From a virus, in the IMG/VR virus record IMGVR_UViG_3300047560_000468, positions 1 to 39,947 of that record: DNA of 39,947 nt. The stretch is one strand, 5' to 3'. The translations under genes and the position numbers were made by a program. This document shows, piece after piece, positions 3,776 through 34,638 of this stretch (position 1 is the stretch's first letter; every line of letters begins with the position of its first letter). Below the pieces are notes generated by a model that was given only the letters and a program-made list of their open reading frames with translations, was not told the origin of the DNA and did no database searches.

Positions 3776-4054
3776 ATGAAAGATAGTAGACTAGAAAGAG
3801 CTGGTGTAGCTGGATATAACCAACCTAAACGCACACCGAACCATCCAACCAAAAGCCATGTTGTTGTAGCTAAGTCTGGAGATCAAGTTAAAACTATTAG
3901 ATTTGGACAACAGGGTGTGGTGGGTAGTCCTAAGAAAGCTGGGGAGAGTGAAGCTTACAGGAACAGACGAGAAAGTTTTAAAGCTCGTCATGCTAAGAAC
4001 ATTGCCAAAGGTAAGATGAGTGCTGCTTATTGGGCTGACAAGGTTAAATGGTAA
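3776..4054 (+). CDS. Conserved basic phage protein
   Basis: 92 aa, strongly basic, with a conserved-looking C-terminus (ESFKARHAKNIAKG then KMSAAYWADKVKW) that I associate with small proteins of aquatic podoviruses and cyanophages. No function is known to me; DNA or RNA binding is plausible from composition. It starts 68 nt after the previous gene and may belong to the same transcript. Its stop codon (TAA) lies inside one of the dispersed 18-bp palindromes (4050-4067). Confidence 0.8.
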   Translation: MKDSRLERAGVAGYNQPKRTPNHPTKSHVVVAKSGDQVKTIRFGQQGVVGSPKKAGESEAYRNRRESFKARHAKNIAKGKMSAAYWADKVKW

Positions 4055-4067
4055 CTTATAAGTTAAT
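4050..4067. repeat. Dispersed 18-bp palindrome, site 1 (GGTAACT-N4-AGTTAAT)
   Basis: GGTAACT, then TATA, then AGTTAAT. The inner 14 nt (4052-4065) are a perfect palindrome. The stop codon of the gene ending at 4054 is inside it. A weaker relative (AGTAACC-TATA-AGTATTG) lies at 4082-4099 and runs into the -35 box of the promoter at 4097. Confidence 0.7.
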
Positions 4068-4096
4068 ATAAAAAGTAATAAAGTAACCTATAAGTA

Positions 4097-4136
4097 TTGA
4101 CTTTTATTATATTATATGCTATAATACTTATAAGTA
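4097..4136 (+). promoter_or_regulatory. Sigma70 promoter with start-site palindrome
   Basis: TTGACT (4097-4102), a 17-nt spacer, then TATAAT (4120-4125) preceded by TGC, so also an extended -10. The palindrome TACTTATAAGTA (4125-4136) begins in the -10 and covers the expected start site, where an operator would block initiation. It should drive the tail/ejection operon from 4150. The same arrangement is seen at 25350-25391 on the other strand. Confidence 0.85.
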
Positions 4137-4149
4137 GAAGGAATAAGAG

Positions 4150-7317: not shown

Positions 7318-7318
7318 T

Positions 7319-8197
7319 ATGGCCTGGATGATGCCAGCAGCAATTATCGGAAGTTCGCTGCTTAGTTCAAGTACAGCTAGTGATGCAGCCAGTCAAGCAG
7401 CCGATGCTCAAAGATATGCTGCCGATAAAGCAGCAGCAGCAGCTCAGTTTAAACCTTATAGCATTACCACTGGTTTTGGTAAAAGCTATTTTAATCCTGA
7501 ATCTCAAACTGCTGGATATGAGCTTGACCCAAGACTGCAAGCCTTTAGAGATCAGCTTTATGGTTTGTCTTCATCCACGCTAGGACAGCTTGCTGGTACT
7601 ACTCCTGAAGCAGAAGCTCAGAAGTATGTTACTCAGCAAATGGGGCTTTTAGCGCCAACTAGACAAGCTGAAGATATTGCAGCTAGACAAGCTGCTCTAG
7701 GTACTGGACGTATTGGACTAGGTGTTACACCTGTTTCTTTAGGGGCTGGGAATCAAGCTGGTTTAGTTAATCCTGATGAGTTTGCTAGACAGCTTGCAAG
7801 AGAACGAGTTAATGCTCAGATTGCTGCTGAAGGAACTCAGTATGGTCAGAATGTTATTGACAAACTAATTGCTCGTGGCACTGGTTTGTTCAGCTCTGGT
7901 GCTGGTGTTGAACAGCTTGGCATGGGTACTCTTACCTCTGGTGCTGATATTGGTAAAGCTGCTGTTCCTGCTGGTGCTGCTCAAGCTCAGTCGTTGCTAT
8001 ATGGTGGTTTGAGTGCTGCTCAAAGTAACTTGGCTGGTGGCTTGGCTACTGCTAATGCCCTTCAGCGTGGTGGTTTAGCATTGAGTGGTATGTTTGCTCA
8101 ACCGCAGTCCCCTGCTACTACTTACTATCCTGCACTTAATCAGTCGTATTATAGTCAGTTTGGTATTACTCCTCAACAAGCGTCTATTGCAATCTAA
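7319..8197 (+). CDS. Internal virion (ejection) protein, gp14-like
   Basis: 292 aa. The Ala/Ser-rich hydrophobic N-terminus (MAWMMPAAIIGSSLLSS) and a long low-complexity helical body rich in Ala, Gln and Gly are typical of the smallest ejection protein of podoviruses (T7 gp14 is 196 aa). It is first of a run of four ejection-type genes, which in T7 are ejected ahead of the DNA to build the trans-envelope channel. Assignment rests on position, size order and composition rather than strong motifs. Confidence 0.65.
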   Translation: MAWMMPAAIIGSSLLSSSTASDAASQAADAQRYAADKAAAAAQFKPYSITTGFGKSYFNPESQTAGYELDPRLQAFRDQLYGLSSSTLGQLAGTTPEAEAQKYVTQQMGLLAPTRQAEDIAARQAALGTGRIGLGVTPVSLGAGNQAGLVNPDEFARQLARERVNAQIAAEGTQYGQNVIDKLIARGTGLFSSGAGVEQLGMGTLTSGADIGKAAVPAGAAQAQSLLYGGLSAAQSNLAGGLATANALQRGGLALSGMFAQPQSPATTYYPALNQSYYSQFGITPQQASIAI

Positions 8198-8208
8198 GGA
8201 GAAACATA

Positions 8209-9144
8209 ATGGCTAGTGATGTGATGTCGTTGTTTAATATGCCCACGCAAGAGCAACTAGGTCAAGACTATTTGCGTGGAATGATGGTTTCTCCTCAGCA
8301 ACTGGGACAGCAAAGCTTGCTACAACAGGTTGTTTCTATGGGAGGTAATGCTGGTGCTGGTATAGGCTATGGTCTTGGAAGACTCATGGGCGGTATGACT
8401 GCTGATGAGGTGAGAGCTAAAGGCATTAACGATGCTATGCAGACTGTTCAGGGCATGGGCCTTACCAGCGATGCTGATATGTATGGTGCTTTGTCTCAAG
8501 AGCTGGCTAAACGTGGCCTTACTCAAGATGCTCTGATGGCTCGTAACACTGGCTTGAAAGCTTTACAAGCTGAAGAACAGATGCGTCTTGCTCGTCAACA
8601 AGGCGACATCAATCTGTCTGAGCTTGGTATTAAACAAGAAGCTGCTGCTAGAGAAGCAGAACTGTTGCCTCTCAAGATTAAAGGGCTACAACTGGATATT
8701 ACGACTAAGGAAGAAGCTCTTAAAACTACTGAAGAGCAGCTTGCTGAAGCTCTCAAAGCTGGTGATACTCCTAGAGCACAAGGTTTGCAAAGACGATTGG
8801 ATGCTCAGAAAGAAGAGATCAACCTCAAGAAGCGTGAGCTGGACATTCGTTCTCGTCAGGCAGAGGCTTCTATGGTTACTGCTGAAGCTGCTAAGAGCAG
8901 AGCAGACGCTTTAGCAAATCAAGAGAGCTATTCTCAGAACGTCACTGTTAGAGATATGCTAGGACAACCTGTGTCTATTGGTCGTTATAGCACTAAGCTC
9001 AATGAGTTTATGGCTAACGATGGAACTAAATTTAAGACTAGAGCAGAACTTGAAGCTTATGCTAAAGAACAATCTGTTCCTGTTAATCCTGCACCCAATA
9101 AAGGAAAAACTCCTCAGAAACCCATCTCTTCTTTTGGAGGTTAA
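8209..9144 (+). CDS. Internal virion (ejection) protein, coiled-coil, gp15-like position
   Basis: 311 aa, beginning MASDVMSLFNMPTQEQLGQD after a GGAG ribosome-binding site. Residues ~120-240 form a long Glu/Lys/Leu/Ala helical region, very likely coiled coil. The C-terminus is Lys/Pro rich. Location between the gp14-like and the large ejection-type genes gives it the role of the middle ejection protein. It is much shorter than T7 gp15 (747 aa), so homology to gp15 itself is not claimed. Confidence 0.6.
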   Translation: MASDVMSLFNMPTQEQLGQDYLRGMMVSPQQLGQQSLLQQVVSMGGNAGAGIGYGLGRLMGGMTADEVRAKGINDAMQTVQGMGLTSDADMYGALSQELAKRGLTQDALMARNTGLKALQAEEQMRLARQQGDINLSELGIKQEAAAREAELLPLKIKGLQLDITTKEEALKTTEEQLAEALKAGDTPRAQGLQRRLDAQKEEINLKKRELDIRSRQAEASMVTAEAAKSRADALANQESYSQNVTVRDMLGQPVSIGRYSTKLNEFMANDGTKFKTRAELEAYAKEQSVPVNPAPNKGKTPQKPISSFGG

Positions 9145-9147
9145 TTG

Positions 9148-11214
9148 ATGGCTACAATGCTCTCGCCTGAAGAACAGGTGATGGGGGCCGTAGGAGACAC
9201 AGGGGCTATCCCTCAAGGTGGCTTCGACATTGTTGGTGCTCTCCAAGAAGGTTACTCACAACAAGATATTGCTGATTATCTAGCTCAAAAGAAAGGCTTT
9301 GATATTGCTGGAGCTAGACAAGAAGGCTATAAAGATGATCAAATCATTGCTCATTTGATGGGTGAGGGTGCTTTCACTGCTGGCATGAAGCAATTCATTC
9401 AAGCCGGTGGGAGTTCTATCAAAGGTCTTGCCCAACTTGGCGGTCAACTTGATGTTGAAAGAGCATTGGCTGAACGTCAAGCTGCTGACATTGCTGCTGC
9501 TAATAATAGGGCTGCTGATATTGCTGGATATGTTGCTGGATCTATTTTAGACCCAATTGCCCTTCCTGCCTGGGCTGTTGCTCCTTTAAGAGGAGCTACT
9601 ATGACAGGTACATTACTCAGACAAGGCGCTGCACAAGGAGCCTTTGCTGGTGCATTAGAGCCTCGACTGACAGAAGAAGACAGCATTGTTAAGAACATTC
9701 TACTAGGCACTGCTTTTGGCGGTGCTTTTGGTGCTGGTATTGGTAAGCTCATTGACAAAGCTGCTGCTAAAGCTGCTGATGTCACCGATGTTACTAAAGC
9801 AACTGAAGATGCAGACCTAACTAAACAAGCAAGCAAGACAGCTATTGAAGATTTAACTAAAGCTGTTGCTCCTGAGACTGTCCCCTCTGAGAGAGCAATC
9901 TCTGGTGAGGGCGTTGCTTCTCGCATTATGGATGAGCCTCAAAGACAGGCTATCACTACTCGTATTGGTCAACTTCAAAGCGAGGTGGATGAGCTTCGTT
10001 GGAGGCAGGCAGAGGGAACCCCGCAAGTTACCCCGCAAGTTACCCCGCAAGCAGCCTTGCTCAGAGGTGAAACCCCTGCTCCTGTTAACTTGGCTGACAA
10101 TTTACCTTCAACCTCTAGAGGGCTCTTTACGCCCACGAGAGAGCAGCCTAGTACCCAGGTACCAGCTCTGTTCCAAAAGCCCGTAGAAGCCGTTCCTGAA
10201 GCTCCTAGAGGCATTGCTACACCACAGCAACCTGCTTTGTTCCAAGGAGGCTTGGACAATGCCATTCAAACCAGACAAGATGAGATTGCTCGTTTGCGTA
10301 ATATGCTGACAGAGCAAGACCAGCTAATTGCAAACAGGAACAAGCCTGAGATGGTGCAAGTGGAAACAAGAAAGCCTCTGGCTCCTGATGCTCCGCTAAC
10401 CCCTGCTGAAACTCAGACCATTGCAAAGCTCCAGAAGGTGCTGGATGACAATGGATTTAAGAACATGGATGAGGCTATTGTAGCTACAGGAAAACCTGCT
10501 GAGGTGGCTGCTGCTCAGGCTCGTATTGACTCTGGTAATGTTCAAACCCTTGAGCAAATTGTCAGGGGTTTTCGTTCTGGTGGCTCTGCTGCTGTTGCTC
10601 CCGAGCGTATGTATGCTGGAGCTACTGTGTTCCCTGATGTTGAAAGAGCTGTGGTTGGTGCAGTAATGGGCGAAAAAGCCCCTCAACTTAAGATTGAACC
10701 TGTCAGTAATGCTGATGTAAACAAACTACTTCAGGATACTGTTGGCTTCTTAGGTAAAGACTTAAAGACTATGCGTGAAGGCGGTGACTTTTCTGGAACT
10801 TTGAAGGGAACTGTTGAAGCTGGTATTCAGTCTGCTCGAAAAGCTGCTGCTGAAGAGGGTTCCTACCTTGCTTGGCTGTTCAAAAAAGACGAGAATGGCA
10901 ACTTCATAAACATCGACAAGAGCTGGGGTAGAGGAGAAATTGCTGCTTTTATGCCAGTTGTCAGAGATGCAACAAATGTGTATAATAGATTGATGGATGA
11001 AGCTGTAACACTAAATACTAAAGGTGATCTTAGTGATGCTGCTCTCCAGACCATCATGGAAAAGATGGCTTATCCAATTCAAATCATGGGTATTTTCCAA
11101 GCAAAAAGAACTCAAGCCTCTCGTAGCTTGAATGCTTTCAGAACTCTAGACATGAGCCTCAAAGATGGCAAAACTGTTAAGGGATTTATGAATGCTGGTG
11201 TGCCCTGCGCCTAA
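9148..11214 (+). CDS. Large ejection-type internal virion protein, N-terminal half
   Basis: 688 aa from ATG 9148, which has GGAGG 7 nt upstream; a TTG directly before it is not needed. Near the N-terminus are two copies of an ~18-residue repeat (FDIVGALQEGYSQQDIADYL, then FDIAGARQEGYKDDQIIAHL). A Gly/Ala-rich hydrophobic stretch follows (~residues 150-200, FGGAFGAGIG), then a Pro/Thr/Gln-rich linker. No lysozyme motif is visible here. With the next gene it totals about 1365 aa, similar to T7 gp16 (1318 aa), suggesting a split large ejection protein. It ends 10 nt before the next ATG. Confidence 0.65.
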   Translation: MATMLSPEEQVMGAVGDTGAIPQGGFDIVGALQEGYSQQDIADYLAQKKGFDIAGARQEGYKDDQIIAHLMGEGAFTAGMKQFIQAGGSSIKGLAQLGGQLDVERALAERQAADIAAANNRAADIAGYVAGSILDPIALPAWAVAPLRGATMTGTLLRQGAAQGAFAGALEPRLTEEDSIVKNILLGTAFGGAFGAGIGKLIDKAAAKAADVTDVTKATEDADLTKQASKTAIEDLTKAVAPETVPSERAISGEGVASRIMDEPQRQAITTRIGQLQSEVDELRWRQAEGTPQVTPQVTPQAALLRGETPAPVNLADNLPSTSRGLFTPTREQPSTQVPALFQKPVEAVPEAPRGIATPQQPALFQGGLDNAIQTRQDEIARLRNMLTEQDQLIANRNKPEMVQVETRKPLAPDAPLTPAETQTIAKLQKVLDDNGFKNMDEAIVATGKPAEVAAAQARIDSGNVQTLEQIVRGFRSGGSAAVAPERMYAGATVFPDVERAVVGAVMGEKAPQLKIEPVSNADVNKLLQDTVGFLGKDLKTMREGGDFSGTLKGTVEAGIQSARKAAAEEGSYLAWLFKKDENGNFINIDKSWGRGEIAAFMPVVRDATNVYNRLMDEAVTLNTKGDLSDAALQTIMEKMAYPIQIMGIFQAKRTQASRSLNAFRTLDMSLKDGKTVKGFMNAGVPCA
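10018..10050 (+). repeat. 12-nt tandem repeat, 2.75 copies
   Basis: The unit ACCCCGCAAGTT is repeated perfectly from 10018, encoding Thr-Pro-Gln-Val repeats in the linker of the large ejection protein. The length keeps the frame, so copy number could vary without breaking the gene. Confidence 0.85.
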
Positions 11215-11224: not shown

Positions 11225-13255
11225 ATGCCATTTGATAAAGCGTGTTTAACACAAGCCAGAGAGTTGATTGATACGGCTACTCAGGTTAAACAATTTCAAA
11301 GCTTAGACAAAGCTACTCAAGATAAAGTTATTGGTCAGCTTACTGGTGATGCAATTAAGAATCAATGGAGTGCAAAAAAAGTTAGAGAGATGGTAGCTGA
11401 GTATATTGTTAATGGCTATCTCACTGCTCCTACAAACATTGCGACCAACATTGGGTCTGCTATTTCTCAAACACTTGTAACTCCTGTTGCTCGTGAGCTG
11501 GAAACTGCGCTTGCTAAACTAACTAAAGCACAAGGAGCTGAAGAGCGTGTCTTTGGTGAAGGGTTGGCTATGATTAAAGCTGCCTTCAAGAACTTCGGTG
11601 AGCGTATTGACTTCTTTAAGGCTGGATATAATAGAGGATTCCCTCTTGAAACCAAGGTGAGTGCTGGAGCTTTTGGTATCTCTGAAAAAGACTTCAAGAC
11701 TTACACAGATAAGCTTGGCCTTGACCAGACTGAAGCATTGCTGTTTAAGCAAGAGCTATATGACGCATATGGAACTCGTAAGATTCCTGGCTTGTTTGGT
11801 AAAGTGCTTTCACAAGGTGCTCGTGCTGGTGTGGGCATTGACGAGGCAAACAAAGCCATGTTTAGACGCATGGAGTTTGATGCTTTGTCATATCGTATGG
11901 CACAGCTCACAGCTAAGAAAGAAGGAATCTCTGTTGCTGATGCTGAAAAACGTTGGGCTATAGATGATTTAAGCCCTGCCGACTATCAAGCTAAAATTAC
12001 ACAAGCCTTGCAAAAGATGGGCTTTGAGAGTCCTGTTGCTGAATACAATAAGTTACAAAACTCTGTGAGAACTCTAGTGTTCCAAGGTGAGGGTGGTAAG
12101 CTTCTCAATAAAGTAACTCAGTTCAGAGCTGAGCATCCTTTGTTTGGTGCTTTGGTTGCTCCCTTTGTTAAGACACCCGCATTGATTCTTAACGAGGGTG
12201 TGGCTTATGTTCCTGTTGTTGGTATGCTTCATCGTAGAGCTAAGATAGATCCTGTTACTGGGTTGTTCCAAGGCACTGACTTTGCTGCTCGTATTCCATC
12301 ACAACGAGCTGAACTTCTAGCTAAGCAAGCCCTTGGAATTGCTGCAACTGCTTATGCTAATCACCTTGTTGACCAAGGACTATTAACTGGTTCTGAACCA
12401 TCAGGGGATAAGCCTAAGTTTTCCATTAAAGTGGGAGACACTTGGTATGGATATGGTCGAGTGGAGCCTTTAGCTACTGTGCTTGGCCTTGCTTCTGATC
12501 TGCAAGAGCTTAGAAACAAATATGCTAAAGACCCTGAAGCTGGTAAAGAAGTTTTGAAAGATGTGGAAAAGTATGGTGCTTTATACATGAAAGCCATATC
12601 GGATAACATCACTCAGAAGAGTTTTATGGAAGGCTTTGCTAAGTTCTTTGCTGCTGCTGTAGACCCAGAAAAGAATGTTGGAAGTTTCCTACAAAGCTAC
12701 GCAACTGCTCTTGTTCCTGCTGGTGTGGCTGCTGTTGCTAGAACCATTGACCCTATCGAACGTGAAGTGACAACCTTCTTTGATAAGGTTAAAGGACGCT
12801 TGCCGGGAGTACGTGAAACACTTCCTCCTAAGTATGACATTACAGGTCAGCCTGTTGAGCGTAGCTTAGGTGAAGTATGGGCTGGCATCAAAACTAAAAC
12901 TCCTAACGCTATTCAAACAGCTCTTGAAGAAAGTGGCTATACCTTTACTCCAAGCGATAAGAAGATTAAGGGTGTTGAACTAACCACTCAGCAGCTTGCT
13001 GAATATAGAAAGCTTTCTGGTAATTACTTTGCTAGTATTGTAACTGAACTGGAAAAAAATCCACAGTTTAAACAAGCAGATGATAGCATGAAAGACCTTA
13101 TCTTGAAGCAACAACTGACGAGAGCTAGAAGTGCTGCTGCTGACCAGCTTGCAAGTACTTTGTTAGCAACAGATCCTAAGTTTAGGGAAGACTTTATAAG
13201 AGAATTTAGGATAAAGAAAGGTCAAGCAGACCAACTTCTAAGAGAACAAAGATAA
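11225..13255 (+). CDS. Large ejection-type internal virion protein, C-terminal half
   Basis: 676 aa from ATG 11225, which has AAGGA 6 nt upstream; an in-frame ATG at 11192 lies inside the previous gene and lacks such a site. The sequence starts abruptly (MPFDKACLTQARELIDTATQ) and soon reaches VAEYIVNGYLTAPTNIATNI, a segment I associate with the middle of very large phage virion proteins. The rest is mainly helical. It is last in the structural arm and is followed directly by the bidirectional terminator. It could be the C-terminal half of a gp16-like protein that is now a separate gene. Confidence 0.65.
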   Translation: MPFDKACLTQARELIDTATQVKQFQSLDKATQDKVIGQLTGDAIKNQWSAKKVREMVAEYIVNGYLTAPTNIATNIGSAISQTLVTPVARELETALAKLTKAQGAEERVFGEGLAMIKAAFKNFGERIDFFKAGYNRGFPLETKVSAGAFGISEKDFKTYTDKLGLDQTEALLFKQELYDAYGTRKIPGLFGKVLSQGARAGVGIDEANKAMFRRMEFDALSYRMAQLTAKKEGISVADAEKRWAIDDLSPADYQAKITQALQKMGFESPVAEYNKLQNSVRTLVFQGEGGKLLNKVTQFRAEHPLFGALVAPFVKTPALILNEGVAYVPVVGMLHRRAKIDPVTGLFQGTDFAARIPSQRAELLAKQALGIAATAYANHLVDQGLLTGSEPSGDKPKFSIKVGDTWYGYGRVEPLATVLGLASDLQELRNKYAKDPEAGKEVLKDVEKYGALYMKAISDNITQKSFMEGFAKFFAAAVDPEKNVGSFLQSYATALVPAGVAAVARTIDPIEREVTTFFDKVKGRLPGVRETLPPKYDITGQPVERSLGEVWAGIKTKTPNAIQTALEESGYTFTPSDKKIKGVELTTQQLAEYRKLSGNYFASIVTELEKNPQFKQADDSMKDLILKQQLTRARSAAADQLASTLLATDPKFREDFIREFRIKKGQADQLLREQR

Positions 13256-13290
13256 ACAAAAAGGGCTCCACTAAGGAGCCCTTCTTTTTT
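13256..13290. terminator. Bidirectional rho-independent terminator between convergent arms
   Basis: A perfect 9-bp stem AAGGGCTCC (13261-13269) / GGAGCCCTT (13275-13283) with loop ACTAA. It is followed by CTTTTTT and preceded by a run of A, so it works in both directions. It separates the structural arm (plus) from the early/replication arm (minus). Confidence 0.93.
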
Positions 13291-13308
13291 GGTAACTTAA
13301 AAGTTACT
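13291..13308. repeat. Dispersed 18-bp palindrome, site 2 (GGTAACT-N4-AGTTACT)
   Basis: GGTAACT, TAAA, AGTTACT: six perfect pairs plus a terminal wobble. The stop codon of the minus-strand gene ending at 13304 is inside it. It lies next to the bidirectional terminator. Confidence 0.75.
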
Positions 13309-13480: not shown

Positions 13481-13481
13481 A

Positions 13482-15549: not shown

Positions 15550-15550
15550 G

Positions 15551-16683: not shown

Positions 16684-16700
16684 AAGAATTCCGTATGTTT

Positions 16701-16777: not shown

Positions 16778-16778
16778 A

Positions 16779-16796
16779 GGTTACTAACTAGTTACT
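16779..16796. repeat. Degenerate 18-bp palindrome, site 3
   Basis: On the minus strand AGTAACT, AGTT, AGTAACC: the same 7-4-7 layout as the other sites with two changed positions. The ThyX stop codon (TAG) falls inside it, between the tRNA and thyX. Confidence 0.5.
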
Positions 16797-17407
16797 TCTT
16801 TGATGGATGGAAACAATGAGTAAATTATATCACGACATTGTTCTGCAATCAAGCGGTGTTCCTTTTGTGTGGCTTTGTCACATCTCAAAGTGATGTAATG
16901 AATCCAGCTACGCAAGCTTCCATTCATATACATATTGCTGATGGTTAGTCCTTCAGGAAGAATCTTTCGGGCTACTTCTTTAGCAACACCACGATCAAGC
17001 ATCTTTTTATAATACTTATCAGTAGTGTTAATTATTTCAATTTGAGCATCCAGCCAAAGCTGATGAAGTTCTCCATTATCTGTTTCAATACTATTCTGTC
17101 TATTATAGAAGTCTTGCAAGCGACACTCACTAGTTAAAAAACCAGGAGCTACAGCATACCTCTGAGAGAACTCTTGAAAACTAAAACTTCTATGTCTTAG
17201 TATTTGTCTCGCAATGTCACGAGTGGTTTCAATTTCAACGCAGACATTGACCATCTCAAATGGGGACCAGTGCTGATTCTTAACCAGATACTTGAGAAGT
17301 TTTGAAGCTGTCTCCTGGTTGTGTTTGTTGAGAGGATTGCTTACTCTCGCCATCTCCGCTATCAATGCTTCCCCGTTCGGAGTCGCCCACACTAGTTCCA
17401 CTGTCAT
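16784..17407 (-). CDS. thyX: Flavin-dependent thymidylate synthase
   Basis: 207 aa. The ThyX signature RHR-x2-S-x4-S-x-R is complete at residues 71-83 (RHRSFSFQEFSQR), preceded by TTRDIARQIL, and SWIHYITLRC lies near the C-terminus. It methylates dUMP to dTMP using methylene-tetrahydrofolate and FAD/NADPH. The start MTVELVWATPNGEALI matches the usual family N-terminus, so 17407 is preferred although it lies 128 nt inside the upstream gene. With NrdJ it makes the phage largely independent of host dNTP supply. Confidence 0.95.
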   Translation of the reverse strand: MTVELVWATPNGEALIAEMARVSNPLNKHNQETASKLLKYLVKNQHWSPFEMVNVCVEIETTRDIARQILRHRSFSFQEFSQRYAVAPGFLTSECRLQDFYNRQNSIETDNGELHQLWLDAQIEIINTTDKYYKKMLDRGVAKEVARKILPEGLTISNMYMNGSLRSWIHYITLRCDKATQKEHRLIAEQCRDIIYSLFPSIKEVTS

Positions 17408-18492: not shown

Positions 18493-19115
18493 AACAATCT
18501 ACCATTCTCCAATGTTCGTTCTTCTCCCAGACCCTCCAAGCAAACGGCAAGCATCTCTTGTTCTGTCGTAGACTTGGCAAGCATCTTCTCCGCTTTGACA
18601 GGCCCTACTTTTGGGATACCCACAATGTTGTCTGCTTTGTCTCCCATTAGGATTTGCTTGTAGAAGAACCGCAGTCCTTCCTCTTCGGAGACATAATACT
18701 TTTCTTTCTTCACAAAATTGTAGTGCCATCCTGCCACCTGATTAAAGTCTTTGTCAATGCTAACCATGATGCAGTCATCACCAAGCTCAGTTGCTTTGAT
18801 TGCAATGCAGTCATCTGCTTCTTCGCCTTCACTGATGATAGCACCCCAAGCGGTAACTAGATAGTTACGCAGAAGCTCTAAGTGTGCTGGCTTCTCTTGT
18901 GTTCTATTGCCTTTGTAAGGGGCTGTGACAGCAATCTCATGTCTGAAGTTATTCTTTCCTGTCAGATAGAGTTGCCAGTCATTCAGCCTTAGATCAACCA
19001 TTAAGATTTCCTCTAAGAAGGCAGCCATCGTAGAGATAGCAATACCTTCTGGTTCATCCTTACAGGCGAACGCAATGCGATAGCACATCACATCTCCGTC
19101 CACCAAAGCAATCAT
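18417..19115 (-). CDS. 5'-3' exonuclease (T7 gp6 / PolI N-terminal type)
   Basis: 232 aa, starting MIALVDGDVMCYRIAFAC, the first acidic motif of the FEN family. GEEADDCIAI and MVSIDKDFNQV supply further metal-binding acids, and GDKADNIVGIPKVGPVKAEKM is the helix-hairpin-helix DNA-binding segment. It should remove RNA primers, degrade host DNA and process ends. It starts at the stop of a 49-aa gene, in the SSB-exonuclease order common in T7-like replication blocks. Confidence 0.9.
   Translation of the reverse strand: MIALVDGDVMCYRIAFACKDEPEGIAISTMAAFLEEILMVDLRLNDWQLYLTGKNNFRHEIAVTAPYKGNRTQEKPAHLELLRNYLVTAWGAIISEGEEADDCIAIKATELGDDCIMVSIDKDFNQVAGWHYNFVKKEKYYVSEEEGLRFFYKQILMGDKADNIVGIPKVGPVKAEKMLAKSTTEQEMLAVCLEGLGEERTLENGRLLWLRRKHQQMWDFPKVSSSQDVSGQ
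18852..18869. repeat. 18-bp palindrome, site 4, inside the exonuclease gene
   Basis: GGTAACT, AGAT, AGTTACG: the same half-sites and 4-nt centre as the other copies, here in coding sequence. Confidence 0.6.
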
Positions 19116-19704: not shown

Positions 19705-19733
19705 TTGTGTTTCCTTTTTCAAGAGTTGTACTA

Positions 19734-19934: not shown

Positions 19935-21643
19935 CAGTGGGTGTCCTTCCATGTCTTCCCAATATGGTATTCCCCAGACAGGGGACACCTTAGTTTAAAA
20001 AACTCTCCAGCTTGTTTAATTGAATCAACAGCAAGAGAACCTACTAGATCAGCGTGTTCTTGTTTTGTTTCAATCTGCCATTCATCATGGACATTAGCAC
20101 AAAATCCATACCACACTTTTCTTTTCCTTAAAGCCTCATCAAGTATGACAAGAGCTTGCTTCATCACAATCGCACCAGCACCTTGGAGGAGACTATTAAG
20201 CGCCGAGTGTTCACTCCTGACCCAAATCTTACGTCCATCAAGACCCGGGACATAGCCCTTTGTTGCATATTTTGCAACTGTATTACGTAGAATTTTGAGT
20301 GAGGGAGTCGAGGAAAGAAACTTTTCCGTAAGTTTTGAGCCAACATCCGAACCACCACCAACGATGGAGCCGATCTTCGTTGGGCCCGCACCATAGAGGA
20401 ACGCATATATGAATGTTTTCGCTGCATCCCGTGTCGGTAGCCCAGCAGCTTTCTGGTTAATCGTGTGGACATCGGTTCCATCTTTGCTAGATCCCTCAGT
20501 AACTGTTCTGACATACGCTTCATCTTTCATATAATGAGCCAACATCCGTAGCTCTAATCCACTAGCATCTGCACCAACAAGAGCATTACCATCATCAACT
20601 GTCCACAAGTCTCGGCATTCATGTCCATAAGGACTTCCTGAGTTGGGAACCTGAGCCATATTAGGACTACTATGTGTCATACGTCCTGTCACAGCTCCAT
20701 TAGTAATTACACTACCATGGACCCTGCCAGTATCTTTCACTTCATCAAGCCATGAAGACACCTGAGCTACACGCTTTTGGAGCATCAAGTATTCATTCAA
20801 TAGCTTAGCCTCTGGTAAGTCGATACCATCTAAAACTTTTTCATCTACGATGATAGCACCCTTCTCAGTCTTCTTTGTGAACTTAACACCAAGACCAGCA
20901 AGTCTCTCAGCAATTTGCTGCCTGGAACCAGGATTAAAAATAATCACTTTGTCTTTGAGAGGCTTGCCTGTTTTCTCAGACACCCGCTTCTCAATAACTG
21001 GAGGAAATACTTCTTGCAACTTGCTTTCAATGTCTATCATCTTTCCTTGAAGAGTTGTCATCAACTCTTGAGCTTTCTTAATATCAAGTCTAAATCCATG
21101 CTCCTTTTGTTTTTGAATAATGATGGCAACTTTATGCTCAAGTTCAATGCTATATGTGTTGAAGTCTTTTAGCAACCCCTCAAGATGCTTATGCACATCA
21201 GCCAATAAAGCAACGTCTTGCTTGCAATAGTCGAACATCAATGGTAAGTCTGGGCTATCCCAACAATTAAGGTTACTAGGTAGTAACCCACCAACAGCAT
21301 ACTTATCAAAATAAACTTGAGGGTAGTCAATCTTGTTGTTCCCTAGTCGTTTCCCCCATACCTCTAAACTGTGGCCTCCGTCTAAACTTGGATTGTATAA
21401 ACGAGAGAGTATCAAGGTATCTATCGCTTGCTTCGCTGTTATCGAAACTTTCCAGCACTTCCGCAACACTACTGCATCGAACCCTATTAAGTTGTGTGCG
21501 ATCACTTTGTCTGAGCTTGCGATTAAGGGAATCAGTGTATTTGGCTCTGTGTGACATACGCTTCCATTCTTCTCATCCCATGTGAAACAACACCAGATTT
21601 TGTCATGCTTTGAGTTTGTTTCAATGTCGAGATAGAGGTTCAT
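19934..21643 (-). CDS. DNA polymerase, family A (T7 gp5-like) with 3'-5' exonuclease
   Basis: 569 aa. The proofreading domain is intact: D6/E8 in LDIETN, HNLIGFD and YCKQDV. Polymerase motifs are A DASGLELRMLAH, B RDAAKTFIYAFLYGAG and C NVHDEWQ. In motif B, Tyr occupies the position of T7 Y526 / E. coli F762, as in T7 rather than the Leu/Phe variants seen in many aquatic phages. It replicates the genome with the primase-helicase and SSB of the same arm. It is shorter than T7 gp5 (704 aa). ATGA overlap with the upstream gene. Confidence 0.96.
   Translation of the reverse strand: MNLYLDIETNSKHDKIWCCFTWDEKNGSVCHTEPNTLIPLIASSDKVIAHNLIGFDAVVLRKCWKVSITAKQAIDTLILSRLYNPSLDGGHSLEVWGKRLGNNKIDYPQVYFDKYAVGGLLPSNLNCWDSPDLPLMFDYCKQDVALLADVHKHLEGLLKDFNTYSIELEHKVAIIIQKQKEHGFRLDIKKAQELMTTLQGKMIDIESKLQEVFPPVIEKRVSEKTGKPLKDKVIIFNPGSRQQIAERLAGLGVKFTKKTEKGAIIVDEKVLDGIDLPEAKLLNEYLMLQKRVAQVSSWLDEVKDTGRVHGSVITNGAVTGRMTHSSPNMAQVPNSGSPYGHECRDLWTVDDGNALVGADASGLELRMLAHYMKDEAYVRTVTEGSSKDGTDVHTINQKAAGLPTRDAAKTFIYAFLYGAGPTKIGSIVGGGSDVGSKLTEKFLSSTPSLKILRNTVAKYATKGYVPGLDGRKIWVRSEHSALNSLLQGAGAIVMKQALVILDEALRKRKVWYGFCANVHDEWQIETKQEHADLVGSLAVDSIKQAGEFFKLRCPLSGEYHIGKTWKDTH
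21271..21288. repeat. 18-bp palindrome, site 5, inside the polymerase gene
   Basis: GGTTACT, AGGT, AGTAACC: a perfect 7-bp inverted repeat with a 4-nt centre; one symmetric base-pair change from the main form. Confidence 0.6.
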
Positions 21644-22002: not shown

Positions 22003-22006
22003 CCAT

Positions 22007-23021: not shown

Positions 23022-23065
23022 GTTTGTTTCCAATGCTAGTTGGAAAAGGCCAAGTCCTTCCCTCT

Positions 23066-23083
23066 GGTAACTTCTTAGTTACC
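23066..23083. repeat. 18-bp palindrome, site 6 (perfect)
   Basis: GGTAACT, TCTT, AGTTACC: perfect 7-bp arms. The TAA stop of the gene ending at 23075 is inside it. Confidence 0.8.
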
Positions 23084-25349: not shown

Positions 25350-25391
25350 TACTTATAAGTATATTATACATAGAAGCATAACAAGTGTCAA
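25350..25391 (-). promoter_or_regulatory. Consensus sigma70 promoter with start-site palindrome
   Basis: Minus strand: TTGACA (25391-25386), 17-nt spacer, TATAAT (25368-25363), a perfect consensus. The palindrome TACTTATAAGTA (25350-25361) covers the expected start site, as at 4125-4136. It drives the replication genes from 25278 down. Confidence 0.9.
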
Positions 25392-25411: not shown

Positions 25412-25429
25412 GGTAACTCATTAGTTACC
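25412..25429. repeat. 18-bp palindrome, site 7 (perfect)
   Basis: GGTAACT, CATT, AGTTACC, extended by one more T/A pair. The stop of the gene ending at 25425 is inside it, and it lies ~20 nt upstream of the -35 of the replication promoter. Confidence 0.8.
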
Positions 25430-25865: not shown

Positions 25866-26061
25866 GATTTTCTCCTTTGTAGAAACAATTAAAAACATTA
25901 CCAAACACTTTGTCAAACGCTTCGTCAAGCTCTTCGTCTGACATAGTTCCATACCCACCTTGAGCAAACAGCTCTGCAATTGCTTTGAAATTTTCTTTGT
26001 GTGACAAGAAAAAATCTAGCTCATTGATAGTGAGAGCTAACGATTTTTCATATCTAGTCAT
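25855..26061 (-). CDS. Hypothetical acidic protein
   Basis: 68 aa, starting MTRYEKSLALTINELDFFLS and containing ELFAQGGYGTMSDEELDEAF. Helical, acidic. ATGA overlap with the upstream stop and an 11-nt overlap with the next start. Not recognised. Confidence 0.65.
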   Translation of the reverse strand: MTRYEKSLALTINELDFFLSHKENFKAIAELFAQGGYGTMSDEELDEAFDKVFGNVFNCFYKGENHGA

Positions 26062-26444
26062 TCTTCCACCTCATAAGTTCCAATTTGAATTACTGGTTTG
26101 TTGGTGATGGGTTTCACTTGCATAAAAGCCACATCAGCAAAAGCTACTGGCTTGTTGTCATCGTCAACAAACGAATCAAACAAGTATGGATTATACCTTA
26201 CATTTTCCCAAACAACTTTGTCAGAGGACAACAGATGTGTTGTGAATTCTCCAACAACACCAGCATGAACATTCTTTCTCTGCTCTCTAAGCACACGCTC
26301 ACGCCCTGCTTTTGACACTTTGAACTTGGGATTTTCTATGCAAACATAAGGCAAATGTGCTATCACTCTCCCTTTCTTTTCTCCCTCTAAAGCCTTGATA
26401 GAGAAAAGCTTTTTGTGCAAATTGAAATATGTAAAAACTTTCAT
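26058..26444 (-). CDS. Conserved phage protein
   Basis: 128 aa from ATG 26444 (GGAG 6 nt upstream; it overlaps the previous stop by a few bases). It begins MKVFTYFNLHKKLFSIKALE and contains KGRVIAHLPYV and KAGRERVLREQRKNVHAGVV. This is a recurrent phage family of unknown function with a conserved FNLHK start and an RKNVHA motif. Confidence 0.75.
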   Translation of the reverse strand: MKVFTYFNLHKKLFSIKALEGEKKGRVIAHLPYVCIENPKFKVSKAGRERVLREQRKNVHAGVVGEFTTHLLSSDKVVWENVRYNPYLFDSFVDDDNKPVAFADVAFMQVKPITNKPVIQIGTYEVEE

Positions 26445-26445
26445 G

Positions 26446-26700
26446 TCAAGCTCCATGGTAAATTTGTGGGATGTCCCTGACAATTGTTTTACCATACAAG
26501 TCATGCTCGTATAGTTTGTCATTCTCATCATACACTGCAACAGTTATTCCGTCTTTACCAGAATATTCCTTGCCGAAAAAGTTTATGTCAACACCATCAA
26601 ACAATGTCCATGAGTCAATACACTCAATATACTCATCCGATAGGTGCTCAAATGTGGCATCACACCACGCCAAAATGTATGCTTCAATACTCGTCTTCAT
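26446..26700 (-). CDS. Hypothetical protein
   Basis: 84 aa, starting MKTSIEAYILAWCDATFEHL; GGAG lies in the 3' end of the upstream HTH gene, which it overlaps by 17 nt. The second half is beta-like and acidic (GKDGITVAVYDENDKLYEHD). Not recognised. Confidence 0.65.
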   Translation of the reverse strand: MKTSIEAYILAWCDATFEHLSDEYIECIDSWTLFDGVDINFFGKEYSGKDGITVAVYDENDKLYEHDLYGKTIVRDIPQIYHGA

Positions 26701-26854
26701 TTGTTTGCTCCATCAAAATAGTTTTCAAAAACTTAACTGTGTATCCAGTTAAATTGGAAAGCTCTTGCAAAGTTAAGCTTGGATTGTTGTCATATATTTC
26801 CTTGATTGTAGCATATGACAATCCGTTCAAATGCCTTCTTAATGTGTATGTCAT
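26684..26854 (-). CDS. 56-aa helix-turn-helix protein, candidate regulator
   Basis: From ATG 26854 with GGAG upstream. MTYTLRRHLNGLSYATIKEI, then NPSLTLQELSNLTGYTVKFL, then KTILMEQTNEDEY. Residues ~26-48 have the spacing of a helix-turn-helix (LQELSNLTGYTVKFLKTIL). It is the only small DNA-binding-type protein I can pick out in the early arm, so it is a candidate partner for the dispersed palindromes. That link is pure inference. Its start lies 35 nt downstream of the inverted repeat at 26889-26905. Confidence 0.65.
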   Translation of the reverse strand: MTYTLRRHLNGLSYATIKEIYDNNPSLTLQELSNLTGYTVKFLKTILMEQTNEDEY

Positions 26855-27140: not shown

Positions 27141-27158
27141 TGTTACTAGATAGTTACC
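27141..27158. repeat. 18-bp palindrome, site 8 (one arm changed)
   Basis: TGTTACT, AGAT, AGTTACC: the right arm is canonical and the left has substitutions. The stop of the Gp88-like gene ending at 27146 lies inside it. Confidence 0.55.
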
Positions 27159-27775
27159 AACCGCACAACTTTGTGCATCTTCTTGCCATGAGCCAAGTAT
27201 GCCACATTGTGAACATCTTTGCTCCAGCAAGCCCGACAATCTAAACACTTACCCCCTTGGGAATAAGCAGGGCACATATGGGCATCAGCCATTGTCTCAG
27301 GTGCAACAACCATAGACACGAATTGTCCAAACTTAGGGGCTTCACCGATGTTATCACCGCTAAAGCGAACCACCACATTAGGCAAAGCATTGAGCCTGTC
27401 AAGCACGTCTTTAAACTTGGCAAACTTATACATCCTAGTGGGTATCCAATGCTGACACCATGGCGTAGCTTGACAAACTTGATAGATTTTCTCTGCCAAC
27501 TCTAGTGCATAAACATCCCCTGAGTCAAACCATCTGAAAAACCTACTATCATGTAGGGCTTTTGTCATGTCAAGCACCCATGTGTCAGCTTGCCATTCCT
27601 GCTTATTAAGCTCACGAACACGCTTGACATTGGGAAAACGATAGTTTCCTCCAGTGGCATAACACCCCTGGCAAACCTCTACAAGCCCACCATTGTCGCC
27701 TACGGCTCCGGGGCAAGTTTCTAGGGCTTGTAAACTCCACGATTTACAGCCAAGTTTAGATGTTTCAGATAACAT
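27146..27775 (-). CDS. Gp88-like protein
   Basis: 209 aa from ATG 27775, with GGAGG upstream. LETCPGAVGDNGGLVEVCQG and CYATGGNYRFPNV, then FRWFDSGDVYALELAEKIYQ, and late cysteines (CPAYSQGGKCLDCRACW) match the phage Gene-product-88 family, which is Cys-rich and may bind a metal or Fe-S cluster. Function unknown; commonly an early gene in podoviruses and mycobacteriophages. The stop is inside palindrome site 8. Confidence 0.8.
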   Translation of the reverse strand: MLSETSKLGCKSWSLQALETCPGAVGDNGGLVEVCQGCYATGGNYRFPNVKRVRELNKQEWQADTWVLDMTKALHDSRFFRWFDSGDVYALELAEKIYQVCQATPWCQHWIPTRMYKFAKFKDVLDRLNALPNVVVRFSGDNIGEAPKFGQFVSMVVAPETMADAHMCPAYSQGGKCLDCRACWSKDVHNVAYLAHGKKMHKVVRLVTI

Positions 27776-27881
27776 TTGACACCTCCAAAATGATGAACAA
27801 CATGAGGATTGTAACACATATGCTACAAAATGTTTTGTCAGTCATGGACTGCTCCATTGTCAAGCTGGCAAAATTGCCACT

Positions 27882-28264: not shown

Positions 28265-28894
28265 TCATTCTCCCCGTCCAATGCTTGCTTGAGCTTGCAT
28301 GATCATGTCCGCCGCTTTGGTGAATCCCGCCGCATGGGTTGCGATCATGATCATCTCAAGTGAATCGATTAGTCCGGCTTTAGTGCTTAGGTCGAATTGC
28401 AGGGGCTTAGCGTCTTCGGTTACTTGCGAGTTACCTTCCTCGCTTTCCCCTTCTGCCTTCTCTGCTTTCACCTTCTCCACTTTGCCCTCATCGTTGACCA
28501 CGGCCTTACCATTTTCAAGGGCCCTTAGGTCCTTCACTAGGCGCTGTACTGAGTCGTACTGGTCGATGATGTTCACCAGATTCTGGCGGGTTTCGTCAGC
28601 GCTCGCATGATCGACTACCTTTTTGAATTCGCTCTTTCGTGTCTTGGCGGTGTTCGCATCATACAGCGCCTTTGCTTGTTCCCCGTAACCCTCAATCATT
28701 TCGGCGTATTCGGCCTTGTGTGCCGTGGTGTAGGCGATTATACAGGCTTTTAGGGTCTTGATTAGCTCGCCCCCGATGCTGGCTTGAACACTAGCGAAAT
28801 GAGCGCCTACGGCCTTTGGTGAATGGGTTACATCGTCATTGGGCTTTACAGCTTGAAGCTGGTCTGCCATGGTTTGCTTAGGTTTCTTGCTCAT
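28265..28894 (-). CDS. First early gene, unknown 209-aa helical protein
   Basis: Starts MSKKPKQTMADQLQAVKPND after AGGAG. Long helical stretches (residues ~30-130, e.g. GGELIKTLKACIIAYTTAHK), a Lys/Glu-rich linker (KVEKVKAEKAEGESEEGNSQ) and a helical C-terminus. I recognise no family. The DNA is visibly richer in G+C than the flanking genes, suggesting recent acquisition or different selection. As the first gene of the early arm it may act in host take-over. Its promoter region carries the perfect palindrome at 28961-28978. Confidence 0.75.
   Translation of the reverse strand: MSKKPKQTMADQLQAVKPNDDVTHSPKAVGAHFASVQASIGGELIKTLKACIIAYTTAHKAEYAEMIEGYGEQAKALYDANTAKTRKSEFKKVVDHASADETRQNLVNIIDQYDSVQRLVKDLRALENGKAVVNDEGKVEKVKAEKAEGESEEGNSQVTEDAKPLQFDLSTKAGLIDSLEMIMIATHAAGFTKAADMIMQAQASIGRGE
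28418..28435. repeat. 18-bp palindrome, coding copy, site 9 (one mismatch)
   Basis: GGTTACT, TGCG, AGTTACC within the first early gene. Centre and right arm are nearly those of the perfect copy at 28961-28978. Confidence 0.45.
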
Positions 28895-28946
28895 GGTGTT
28901 TACTCCTGGTGTCTGTCAGAGCACTATTGCGCTGTCAGTGATGTCA

Positions 28947-28978
28947 GTATAGCACCATTGGTAACTTGCAAGTTACCT
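28947..28978 (-). promoter_or_regulatory. Early promoter (extended -10) with perfect 18-bp palindrome
   Basis: Minus strand: TATACT (28952-28947) preceded by TGC, an extended -10, about 53 nt before the ATG of the first early gene. No good -35 is visible. Instead the perfect palindrome GGTAACT-TGCA-AGTTACC (28961-28978) covers the -35/spacer region, where a bound protein would repress or activate. Confidence 0.6.
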
Positions 28979-29308: not shown

Positions 29309-29381
29309 AGTGGATAAGCTGTGGATAACTTATTGATTTGTAAAGAACTTGTGGATATCCTGTGGATAACTATGTGGATAA
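29309..29381. other. Cluster of five DnaA boxes, putative replication origin
   Basis: TGTGGATAA (reverse of the strong DnaA box TTATCCACA) occurs exactly at 29320-29328, 29361-29369 and 29373-29381, and with one mismatch at 29309-29317 and 29350-29358. All have the same orientation. Start distances are 11, 30, 11 and 12 nt, close to whole helical turns. An AT-rich stretch (29420-29600) follows on one side, as an unwinding element would. It lies at the divergence point of the two transcription arms. Confidence 0.75.
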
Positions 29382-29434
29382 CTAAAAAGGAGGCATAACA
29401 GAATCTCGACTGTATGATGTGAGACAAGAAGTGC

Positions 29435-29478
29435 TTGACAAATTAAGAATTTTGTGGTATACTATATACATATATGTA
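29435..29478 (+). promoter_or_regulatory. Sigma70 promoter for the packaging/head operon, with palindrome
   Basis: TTGACA (29435-29440), 17-nt spacer, TATACT (29458-29463). The palindrome TACATATATGTA (29467-29478) lies at the expected start site, a variant of TACTTATAAGTA. The ~145-nt leader is AT-rich and carries another ACTTATAAGT (29570-29579) shortly before the small terminase gene. Confidence 0.82.
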
Positions 29479-32262: not shown

Positions 32263-32263
32263 T

Positions 32264-32683
32264 ATGGAATGTCCACTCGCTCTCAGGAGCAATGAAGAGA
32301 ATATTAGAAACCACAAGAAGACCATTAAAGAACATGGTCTTGGCCCTGCTGACCCACGAAAGAGCAATGCTGCTTTCTGGCAAGACAAGGCACAGAAGTG
32401 GGGAGTGACCGAAGGAGATGCTAGGGGCCGTTTGTGTGCCAACTGTGAGCATTACTTACAAACTCCTTCAATTCAAAAATGTATTGAAGAAACTCCTGCT
32501 AAGAATTTTAAAACATCTATGGTAGATTCTTCAATTGCAGATATTGAAAGTAAGCCAGTTGCTTTTTGTTCTCTCTATCATATTACTTGTTCTCCAACAA
32601 GAACCTGTGATAGTCAAGAACTTGGTGGTCCTATTTACTCTGATGAGTATCAATCTTTAGATAATGAAATGGAGAAGCCATGA
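32264..32683 (+). CDS. Cysteine-rich conserved phage protein
   Basis: 139 aa, starting MECPLALRSNEENIRNHKKT one base after the terminase stop. Cysteines come in RLCANCEHY, QKCIEE, FCSLYHITC and RTCDSQELGGPI, enough to hold a zinc ion or an Fe-S cluster. The pattern, with WQDKAQKWGVTEGDARGRLC, is a recurring protein between terminase and portal in aquatic podoviruses; function unknown. It overlaps the portal start by 4 nt. Confidence 0.75.
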   Translation: MECPLALRSNEENIRNHKKTIKEHGLGPADPRKSNAAFWQDKAQKWGVTEGDARGRLCANCEHYLQTPSIQKCIEETPAKNFKTSMVDSSIADIESKPVAFCSLYHITCSPTRTCDSQELGGPIYSDEYQSLDNEMEKP

Positions 32684-34638
32684 GCTTTGAAGAAGAAACC
32701 TACAAGGATGATGGCCTTGCCTCTTGGGTGATGGAGAAAGTAGATCGCTGGCGTGATCACTATGAAAGCACTTATAAAGAACGCTTTGAGGAATACTATC
32801 GCCTGTGGAGAGGGCAGTGGAATGCTTCTGATAAAACTCGTGAAAGCGAGAGAAGCAAACTCATTAGCCCTGCTTTGCAGCAAGCTGTAGAGAGTGCTGT
32901 TGCTGAGGTTGAAGAAGCCACTTTTGGTCGTGGTAAGTGGTTTGATATTAAAGATGATGCTCGTGATGCTCAGAACTTGGATATTCAGGTAACTAGAGAG
33001 TTACTTAATGAAGAGTTTCAGTTCACTAAAGTTAGACGAGCCATCTCTGAAATCCTGATTAACTCAGCCGTATATGGTACTGGCTGTGGTGAACTGGTGT
33101 TGGAAGAGGTCAATGATGTAACACCAGCTTCTCAGCCCATTCTAGATGGCGCTGCTATGGCTGTAGGTGTGATGGTACAGCCTCGCACTGTTGTTAAACT
33201 ACGTCCTGTGCTTCCTCAGAACTTCTTGATTGATCCTAATGCTTCCTCTATTGAAGAAGCTTTGGGTGTTGCTATTGATGAATTTGTTCCTAAACATCAG
33301 GTTAAAATCTTGCAAGAGCAGGGTGTTTACAAAGATGTAGAGATTGATAGTGCTGCTCCTGATCAAGAGCTTGAGCCTGATCAAGAAATGATTATCTATC
33401 AAGATGATAAAGTACGTCTAACCAAGTATTATGGTCTTGTTCCTACTGATTTGCTTAAGAAACATTTAGGCACTTATGAAGAGCCTAAGAACGAGAAGGC
33501 TGATGAGAAAGAGGATGAGAATGAGCCTGAGTACACTGAGGCAATTATTGTTATTGGCAATAGTGGTGTATGCTTGAAGGCTGAAGAAAATCCTTACATG
33601 ATGGAAGATCGTCCTGTAGTGGCTTTTGCTTGGGATGTTGTTCCTGGTCGTTTCTGGGGCCGTGGTATTTGTGAGAAGGGTTATAATAGCCAGAAGGCTT
33701 TGGATGCCGAGTTGAGAGCTCGTATTGATGGATTAGCTCTTACTGTGCACCCAATGATGGCTATTGATGGCTCTCGGATGCCTAGAGGCTCTAAGTTTGA
33801 GATTCGTCCGGGTAAAACTGTTGTAACCAATGGTAATCCTTCTGAAATCTTGCAGCCATTTAAGTTTGGTGGTATTGATAATGTAACTTTCCAACAAGCT
33901 GGTGAACTTCAAAAGATGGTTCAGATGGCTACTGGTGCTATTGATGCTGCTGGAATGACTGGGGCTGTCAATGGTGAAGCTGCTGCTGGTGCTGTTTCTA
34001 TGTCTTTGGGTGCAATCATCAAGAGACATAAGAGAACGCTTATTAATTTCCAAGAAACTTTCCTACTTCCTATGGTAAGTAAGGTTGCTTGGAGATATAT
34101 GCAATATGATCCTGATCGTTTCCCTGCTCAAGACTACAAATTTGTAGCCTCTAGCACACTAGGTGTGATAGCTCGTGAGTATGAAGTAACTCAATTGGTT
34201 CAATTGCTTAATACTTTGAGTAATGATAGTCCTTTGTATCCTTTGTTGGTTCAAGGTGTTGTGGAAAATATGAGTTTGTCCAATAGAGAAAGCTTTATTG
34301 AGCAACTTAAGCAAGCTAGTCAGCCTACCCCTCAACAACAACAAATGGCAGAGATGGATATGCAAGTTAAAATGGCTAGTGCTCAAGCTCAAATTGCATT
34401 ACTACAGGCTCAAGCTGCTGAAAGTCAGGCCAGAGCTGCTAAATATACTACAGAAGCTCAAGCTGTTCCTGCTCGTTTGGAGAATGATAGAATTAGAGCT
34501 ATCTCGGCTAATATCAAGCCAGGAGAACAGGACGATAAAGAGTTTGAACGTAGGGCAAAAGTTGCTGAATTGGTCCTAAAAGAGCGTGAAATTGCTAGCA
34601 GAGAGGCTATTGTAGCTCAGCAAATGAATAAAGCTTGA
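32680..34638 (+). CDS. Portal (head-tail connector) protein
   Basis: 652 aa. The early YYRLWRGQWNASDKTRESER, and later GRFWGRGICEKGYNSQKALD, are typical of podovirus portals, as is the Gln/Ala-rich C-terminal helix (residues ~555-600, QMAEMDMQVKMASAQAQIAL) that forms the barrel. It sits at the capsid vertex and is the docking site for terminase and tail adaptor. Longer than T7 gp8 (536 aa). Palindrome-like site 10 lies in its 5' third. Confidence 0.88.
   Translation: MSFEEETYKDDGLASWVMEKVDRWRDHYESTYKERFEEYYRLWRGQWNASDKTRESERSKLISPALQQAVESAVAEVEEATFGRGKWFDIKDDARDAQNLDIQVTRELLNEEFQFTKVRRAISEILINSAVYGTGCGELVLEEVNDVTPASQPILDGAAMAVGVMVQPRTVVKLRPVLPQNFLIDPNASSIEEALGVAIDEFVPKHQVKILQEQGVYKDVEIDSAAPDQELEPDQEMIIYQDDKVRLTKYYGLVPTDLLKKHLGTYEEPKNEKADEKEDENEPEYTEAIIVIGNSGVCLKAEENPYMMEDRPVVAFAWDVVPGRFWGRGICEKGYNSQKALDAELRARIDGLALTVHPMMAIDGSRMPRGSKFEIRPGKTVVTNGNPSEILQPFKFGGIDNVTFQQAGELQKMVQMATGAIDAAGMTGAVNGEAAAGAVSMSLGAIIKRHKRTLINFQETFLLPMVSKVAWRYMQYDPDRFPAQDYKFVASSTLGVIAREYEVTQLVQLLNTLSNDSPLYPLLVQGVVENMSLSNRESFIEQLKQASQPTPQQQQMAEMDMQVKMASAQAQIALLQAQAAESQARAAKYTTEAQAVPARLENDRIRAISANIKPGEQDDKEFERRAKVAELVLKEREIASREAIVAQQMNKA
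32988..33005. repeat. 18-bp palindrome, coding copy, site 10
   Basis: GGTAACT, AGAG, AGTTACT: six perfect pairs with the standard 4-nt centre, in the portal gene. Confidence 0.5.

Follow-up and report, generated by a model that had tools for sequence, protein, structure and literature searches.

Short palindromes, named conserved inverted repeats (CIRs), are dispersed over the early region of the Streptomyces phage phiC31 and are bound by the phage repressor. In bipartite operators of the GalR/LacI type, two palindromes are placed around the promoter about ten helical turns apart. Genomes of Cluster A mycobacteriophages, such as L5 and Bxb1, contain many stoperators each, some at the early promoter and most away from promoters, and relatives within this cluster have different stoperator sequences matched to their own repressors (PMC6550527). 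The L5 sites are 13 bp long, asymmetric, oriented with transcription, and present in 20–30 copies per genome (PMC6550527). One repressor of this group is a monomer that sits with two domains on its asymmetric site (PMC9283540). Dispersed 22-bp repeats were also found in the T1-like phages Stevie and TLS and were likened to stoperators by the authors (PMC4319613, PMC11447400).

Here, a dispersed palindrome of an uncultured phage was analyzed together with its counterparts in related genomes. Judged from sequence comparisons, the regulator that binds this palindrome is most likely the product of the first early gene.

Genome Organization

The analyzed DNA is the uncultured virus record IMGVR_UViG_3300047560_000468, positions 1 to 39,947, and this whole stretch of 39,947 bases is herein referred to as the window. 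Its source is a virus of bacteria known from environmental DNA alone. The gene set is that of a short-tailed phage and includes genes for terminase, portal, internal virion protein, family A DNA polymerase, and primase/helicase, as well as for exonuclease, ribonucleotide reductase, and thymidylate synthase. Among the main window genes scanned, neither an RNA polymerase nor genes of a temperate phage, including integrase or parABS, were seen. The early operon lies on the minus strand, running from about 29.0 to 13.3 kb; the late operon, on the plus strand, starts at 29.4 kb and reaches the contig end. Gene order in relatives points to a circularly permuted record, in which case the late operon would resume at position 1 and extend to 13.3 kb.

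The early operon of this podophage holds matches to the L5 gp82 family (26058–26540, minus strand) and to the GP88 family (27146–27817, minus strand). It also contains a tRNA-Arg (TCT) gene (16701–16777, minus strand) that adjoins the palindromic site at 16779; this tRNA was the sole match in an Rfam scan of the window. DnaA boxes, comprising three exact copies of TTATCCACA plus near copies, are clustered at 29320–29385, a short distance upstream of the late promoter. This cluster is absent from the relatives G004 and G030 and may represent a host-type replication signal particular to the window phage.

Palindromic Sites in the Window

With up to three mismatches allowed, GGTAACTN4AGTTACC had 14 matches in the window, compared with a mean of 1.15 and a maximum of 4 in shuffled sequences. 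The strict core GTWACTN4AGTWAC, where W is A or T, permitted at palindrome positions 4 and 15, is herein referred to as M1; it was found in 10 copies in the window and in approximately none in shuffles. A sequence-only reading of this DNA had listed eleven dispersed copies with a 7-4-7 geometry and had proposed comparisons with shuffled sequence and with close relatives. All eleven sites are present, with the start given as 28961 corrected to 28960, and ten of them are supported (Table 1); the eleventh (4050–4067) has a broken core, is not conserved at the orthologous position, and is not supported as a site. Both proposed comparisons were run: the motif count is far higher than in shuffles, and the sites are kept in close relatives. 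The three copies described as perfect (23066, 25412, and 28960) are indeed so. Likewise, ORF ends confirm that a stop codon lies inside six sites (4050, 13291, 16779, 23066, 25412, and 27141), which is partly built in because GTAAC and GTTAC carry TAA on one strand. The central N4 had been described as freely varying; instead, A/T is favored at its ends and G-C in its middle. Mismatches at palindrome positions 1 and 18 are common.

The matches at 10015 and 10027 are products of a 12-bp tandem repeat and were set aside. This repeat, ACCCCGCAAGTT, is located at 10018–10051 within a late structural gene and mimics the palindrome half-sites. The match at 19495 is weak, with two mismatches.

Table 1. 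Palindromic sites, promoters predicted from the sequence, and the candidate regulator gene in the window.
Feature	Position	Strand	Location	Remarks
Site GGTAACTTAAAAGTTACT	13291..13308		Convergent end of early and late operons, past intrinsic terminator	
Site GGTTACTAACTAGTTACT	16779..16796		Between thymidylate synthase gene and tRNA-Arg	About +30 of promoter-like sequence
Promoter-like TTGATT-17-TATAAT	16824..16852	-	Upstream of tRNA-Arg	10/12 match, TG before -10
Site GGTAACTAGATAGTTACG	18852..18869		Within exonuclease gene	Encodes RNYLVT; present in 16/16 motif-clade sequences compared
Site GGTTACTAGGTAGTAACC	21271..21288		Within DNA polymerase gene	Present in 14 distinct polymerase sequences
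Site GGTAACTTCTTAGTTACC	23066..23083		Between two early genes	Perfect; counterpart in L222
Promoter TTGACA-17-TATAAT	25363..25391	-	Precedes zinc-ribbon and primase/helicase genes	12/12 match
Site GGTAACTCATTAGTTACC	25412..25429		20 bp upstream of consensus promoter	Perfect; position -65
Site TGTTACTAGATAGTTACC	27141..27158		End of gp88-like gene, just ahead of ribosome site of next gene	Counterpart in L222
First early gene	28265..28894	-		209 aa, helical; proposed regulator predicted to bind the palindromes
Site GGTTACTTGCGAGTTACC	28418..28435		Within candidate regulator gene	Counterpart within gene in L222
Extended -10 TGcTATACT	28946..28951	-	Putative early promoter	Site centre at about -30, as read from sequence
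Site GGTAACTTGCAAGTTACC	28960..28977		Covers -35 region of putative regulator promoter	Perfect; counterpart in L222 and at early promoter of other relatives
Late promoter TTGACA-17-TATACT	29435..29463	+	Upstream of terminase small subunit gene	
Site GGTAACTAGAGAGTTACT	32988..33005		Within portal gene	Sole strict late-arm site in window

Conservation and Location of the Sites

The M1 core was found in 8–9 copies in three other full-length close relatives (G004, G030, and G029) and in 7 copies in a 26-kb fragment (G013); no copies were found in fourteen more distant relatives. Outside the close relatives, the core was seen only in fragments of these phages. Most M1 sites occupy orthologous positions, namely the convergent operon end, the exonuclease gene, the polymerase gene, the end of gene 25425, the stretch ahead of gene 27920, and the region around the gene 28265 start. 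The site at 13291 is conserved in six relatives (G004, G030, G029, G013, G023, and G008). The nearest relative, L222, shares the sites at 23066, 27141, and 28418 as well as the site in the portal gene, which lies at the same distance from the portal start as the window site at 32988.

Two sites inside genes coincide with changes in the encoded proteins. In exonuclease genes without the motif the corresponding residues are REYLQT, RGYMVD, REYLVT, RDYLVT, or others, versus the uniform RNYLVT of the M1 clade. In the polymerase gene, an Asn/Tyr residue switches in step with the A/T position of the site, and the site is missing in some relatives through substitution or in-frame indel. These patterns suggest that the protein sequence bends to keep the site in both genes. 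An excess of synonymous constraint at gene-internal sites was not significant, with 38 of 216 and 29 of 281 windows being at least as conserved.

In the four full-length M1 genomes, the early arm holds 31 of the 35 sites (p ~2e-9); three of the others are located in the late-operon leader and one in the portal gene. A sigma70-type promoter lies on the early strand within 100 bp of 63 of the 160 distinct M1 sites, compared with 8% of random positions (66/800) and 13/160 in the antisense control; orthologous M1 sites are not independent, so the effect size matters more than the p value. Such enrichment was not seen for the M4 palindrome and was small for M2 (both described below). Translation-start signals occur within 45 nt downstream of 68/160 M1, 16/42 M2, and 14/31 M4 sites (42%, 38%, and 45%), compared with 24, 5, and 5 sites (15%, 12%, and 16%) in the upstream control.

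In many M1 relatives, a pair of sites about 102–107 bp apart, that is, ten helical turns, flanks the putative regulator promoter at -76/-77 and +25 to +31. Sites at the predicted replication promoter are centered at -45, -55, -65 (the window), or -96, positions that differ by full helical turns; one site, at -52, departs from this. The late promoter of relatives is accompanied by a palindrome at about +50 to +68, and the window has just a degenerate copy near 29567.

The full-length relatives of the M1 clade contain three near-identical TTGACA-17-TATAAT promoters, each followed by ACATATAAG at about +1 to +10. Among the genomes checked, this start region is confined to the M1 clade; it was found in the window at 29435–29463 (plus strand) and 25363–25391 (minus strand), and in G004 the promoter and start region occur at 7025, 27397, and 31490.

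Co-variation of the First Early Gene and the Palindrome

De novo searches revealed three further palindromes: M2 (GGTTAACGnCGTTAACC, eight copies in G041), M3 (TTTAGTCATGACTAAA, six copies in G044), and M4 (TAGATAnnTATCTA, eight copies in G017). In all three genomes these sites surround the first gene of the early operon, and in each of the four lineages the promoter or start of this gene is flanked by sites. The other loci, which included HTVC104P, CRP-403, and Bylgja, phages of a different layout that served as extra loci in the palindrome scan, had no additional dispersed palindrome of comparable density.

Additional relatives were gathered by scans with the first early gene proteins. Among loci holding the gene, protein subfamilies and palindromes match one to one, without any cross match, in 30, 10, 4, and 5 contigs (49 in total, counted by contig name). 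Protein identity within subfamilies sharing one palindrome goes down to 46% (M1), 48% (M2), and 64% (M4). In 1.98 Mb of loci without the gene, no match to the M2 or M3 palindrome was found; the matches to M1 or M4 among gene-less loci were located in contigs or pieces from relatives that do not cover the regulator stretch.

The sister phages G041 and G044 share 92% identity in the large terminase subunit (terL), 82% in the polymerase, and 93% in the phosphoesterase, and a site marks the phosphoesterase gene start in each. Despite this sister status, their palindromes are unrelated, and their first early genes had no BLAST match at E 0.01, with 23% identity at a lax cut-off. The first early gene is the one fast-diverging gene between G041 and G044 that has a counterpart in every motif lineage. 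By co-variation, this gene is the predicted specificity partner of the palindrome, and the case looks like an undescribed phage regulator/operator switch that swaps its own lock and key. The co-variation may partly come from shared descent.

The sequence-only reading had recognized no repressor and had named a 56-aa HTH protein (26684–26854, minus strand) as the first candidate for binding. The first early gene now fits that role by co-variation, flanked as it is by sites in every lineage, and the HTH protein does not track the motif. Counterparts were limited to two relatives, L229 (44%) and L050 (67%); L050 lacks the motif, and none was found in the other motif-bearing phages. An HTH gene of the M2 and M3 phages (G041 8077–8394, G044 7507–7794) was rejected for the same reason: identity in several M2 pairs is 27–33%, as distant as from M3. 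The basic 84-aa product of gene 27920 was also rejected, since this gene is present in M1 and M4 (G017) and is not universal; reading of the ORF lists revealed no counterpart of it among the first early genes of G041 and G044.

Two other repeat types were observed. TGTTGT-N6-ACAACA is present in G016 (12289–23185) and G020, where the copies are clustered or imperfect and partly upstream of the terminase gene; no homolog of the regulator was found for it in these two genomes, and it may be a fifth, weaker system. CTTAAG-type 10-bp repeats in G039, G040, and G043 form tight arrays near the terminase small subunit gene. These were rejected as dispersed sites, being grouped together and iteron-like, and their carriers have no dispersed palindromes.

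Features of the Candidate Regulator

The first early gene proteins of the M1–M4 lineages are 167–209 aa long. For the candidate regulator, no significant match was found in Pfam, PHROG, PDB, or fold comparisons, and two predicted structures had no match among solved structures or viral models (E up to 0.001). The sequence-only reading had considered the system possibly new, which agrees with a predicted binding protein in no known family. Similarity between the subfamilies is weak: profile comparison linked the M1 and M4 proteins (E 6e-5) and, more weakly, the M2 and M3 proteins (E 0.003); M1 and M2 proteins were not linked.

The pattern K-x2-K/R-S-x2-K, located in one helix, is common to the subfamilies, with the M3 protein deviating at the first K. 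Within a motif group no other stretch is conserved as well as this helix, whose sequence differs between groups: the M1 version is TAKxRKSEFK, and SVKVLKSNRKCI is invariant among proteins about 45–67% identical to that of G041. Such conservation points to it as the putative DNA-binding helix. As read from both predicted structures, three helices are followed by the K/S helix, two more helices, a linker, and a C-terminal hairpin.

No close relatives of the regulator were found in annotated phages, in plasmids, or in one genome each of 84,980 bacterial species. Therefore, no evidence of lysogeny was found.

Proposed Mechanism and Alternatives

The palindromes are probably operators of an autoregulated phage repressor, accompanied by promoterless stoperator-like sites. 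This proposal builds on computed results, namely the sites themselves, their clade-wide conservation, DNA character, and position bias, and the co-variation of regulator and motif. From these, we infer DNA binding, dimerization, repression, looping, and roadblocking by the product of gene 28265. The early operon would be initiated by the host RNA polymerase with sigma70. The product of 28265–28894 (minus strand) would then bind the palindromes, probably as a dimer with one subunit per half-site GGTWACT, making contact through the helix with K-x2-K/R-S-x2-K. Binding to the sites around its own promoter would turn that promoter off, by means of two flanking sites in many relatives and of one site over the -35 region in the window. 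Further targets of the regulator would be the replication promoter and, among relatives, the late promoter as well. Promoterless sites in the early operon, several of them ahead of ribosome-binding sites, would serve as downstream roadblocks halting read-through.

Another possibility, unlikely as a whole, is that the first early protein binds the sites as an activator or dual switch, turning on the replication and perhaps late promoters and turning its own promoter down. Site centers at -45, -55, -65, -76, and -96 share about one helix face, and 39% of M1 sites are near a promoter; an activator or a regulator that depends on contact would be equally compatible with helically phased sites ahead of strong promoters. 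However, promoters with the consensus TTGACA-17-TATAAT should need no help, many sites are downstream of promoters (+25 to +68) or distant from any, and the strict motif is missing at a promoter of this class that follows the 3776 gene. Even so, activation is a serious alternative to repression at the replication promoter.

It is considerably less probable that the sites organize the phage DNA for partition, condensation, replication, or packaging, the protein being ParB-like or nucleoid-like and autoregulation incidental. A spacing of about 2 kb along the early operon and promoterless sites within genes would suit such a role, but the sites are nearly absent from the late arm, cluster at promoters, and occur just ahead of ribosome sites, and no ParA or partition gene was seen among the genes scanned.

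Binding by a host transcription factor that the phage exploits, with differences between lineages reflecting different hosts, is more doubtful still: the sites surround the first early gene in each lineage, and it is this gene, present throughout the lineages, that diverged so fast between G041 and G044.

Finally, it is very improbable that the palindromes act as RNA hairpins in termination, processing, or translation control before ribosome sites, although several sites are just upstream of start signals and a copy inside a gene was scored as a weak terminator-like stem: mismatches at positions 1/18 are common, the Rfam scan found nothing beyond the tRNA, and positions 4 and 15 are complementary in 85 of 162 distinct M1 sites, with 84.4 expected, so that the A/T position of each half varies independently instead of showing the pairing expected of a hairpin, and the absence of base-pair covariation therefore argues for a DNA operator.

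Returning to the repressor model, a bolder extension of it, which we regard as speculative and rather unlikely, is that podophages of aquatic bacteria, themselves of non-temperate appearance, carry immunity-like scattered operators, where a fast-diversifying regulator of new fold would silence early genes of the same kind and so protect an infected cell against a second phage that has the same lock and key. If true, this would create selection for switching the protein and all its sites together, as between G041 and G044. Dispersed operator sets have been studied experimentally in few phages, mainly in connection with lysogeny. Here, the one-to-one match names a candidate regulator and provides four apparently distinct specificities with their sites, along with a natural swap between close sisters. 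The system bears on how a regulator and about ten sites can be re-wired together in phages, and on the role of dispersed operators in phages without visible lysogenic genes; the regulator proteins are potential new DNA-binding parts.

Comparison With Known Systems

The flanking-site spacing resembles that of GalR/LacI-type operators; the candidate regulator differs in having no sequence or fold match to those regulators, and looping by it is a prediction. The phiC31 CIRs are likewise palindromic dispersed operators, with a different sequence and host group, and the window candidate had no family match. The T1-like repeats occur in lytic phages, are asymmetric and transcription-oriented, and have no proposed binding protein, whereas the window sites are symmetric.

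The L5 stoperators had been named in the sequence-only reading as the closest parallel. This comparison holds for the dispersed set itself: multiple sites occur well above chance, an operator at the main predicted early promoter is combined with promoterless sites, and specificity varies among relatives. It does not extend to symmetry, number, distribution, or repressor family, since the sites of the window clade are palindromic, present in 7–10 copies per genome, and concentrated in the early arm (31 of 35), and the candidate regulator matches no known repressor family significantly in Pfam, PHROG, or PDB. The window system thus works like the L5 stoperators without being a member of that group.
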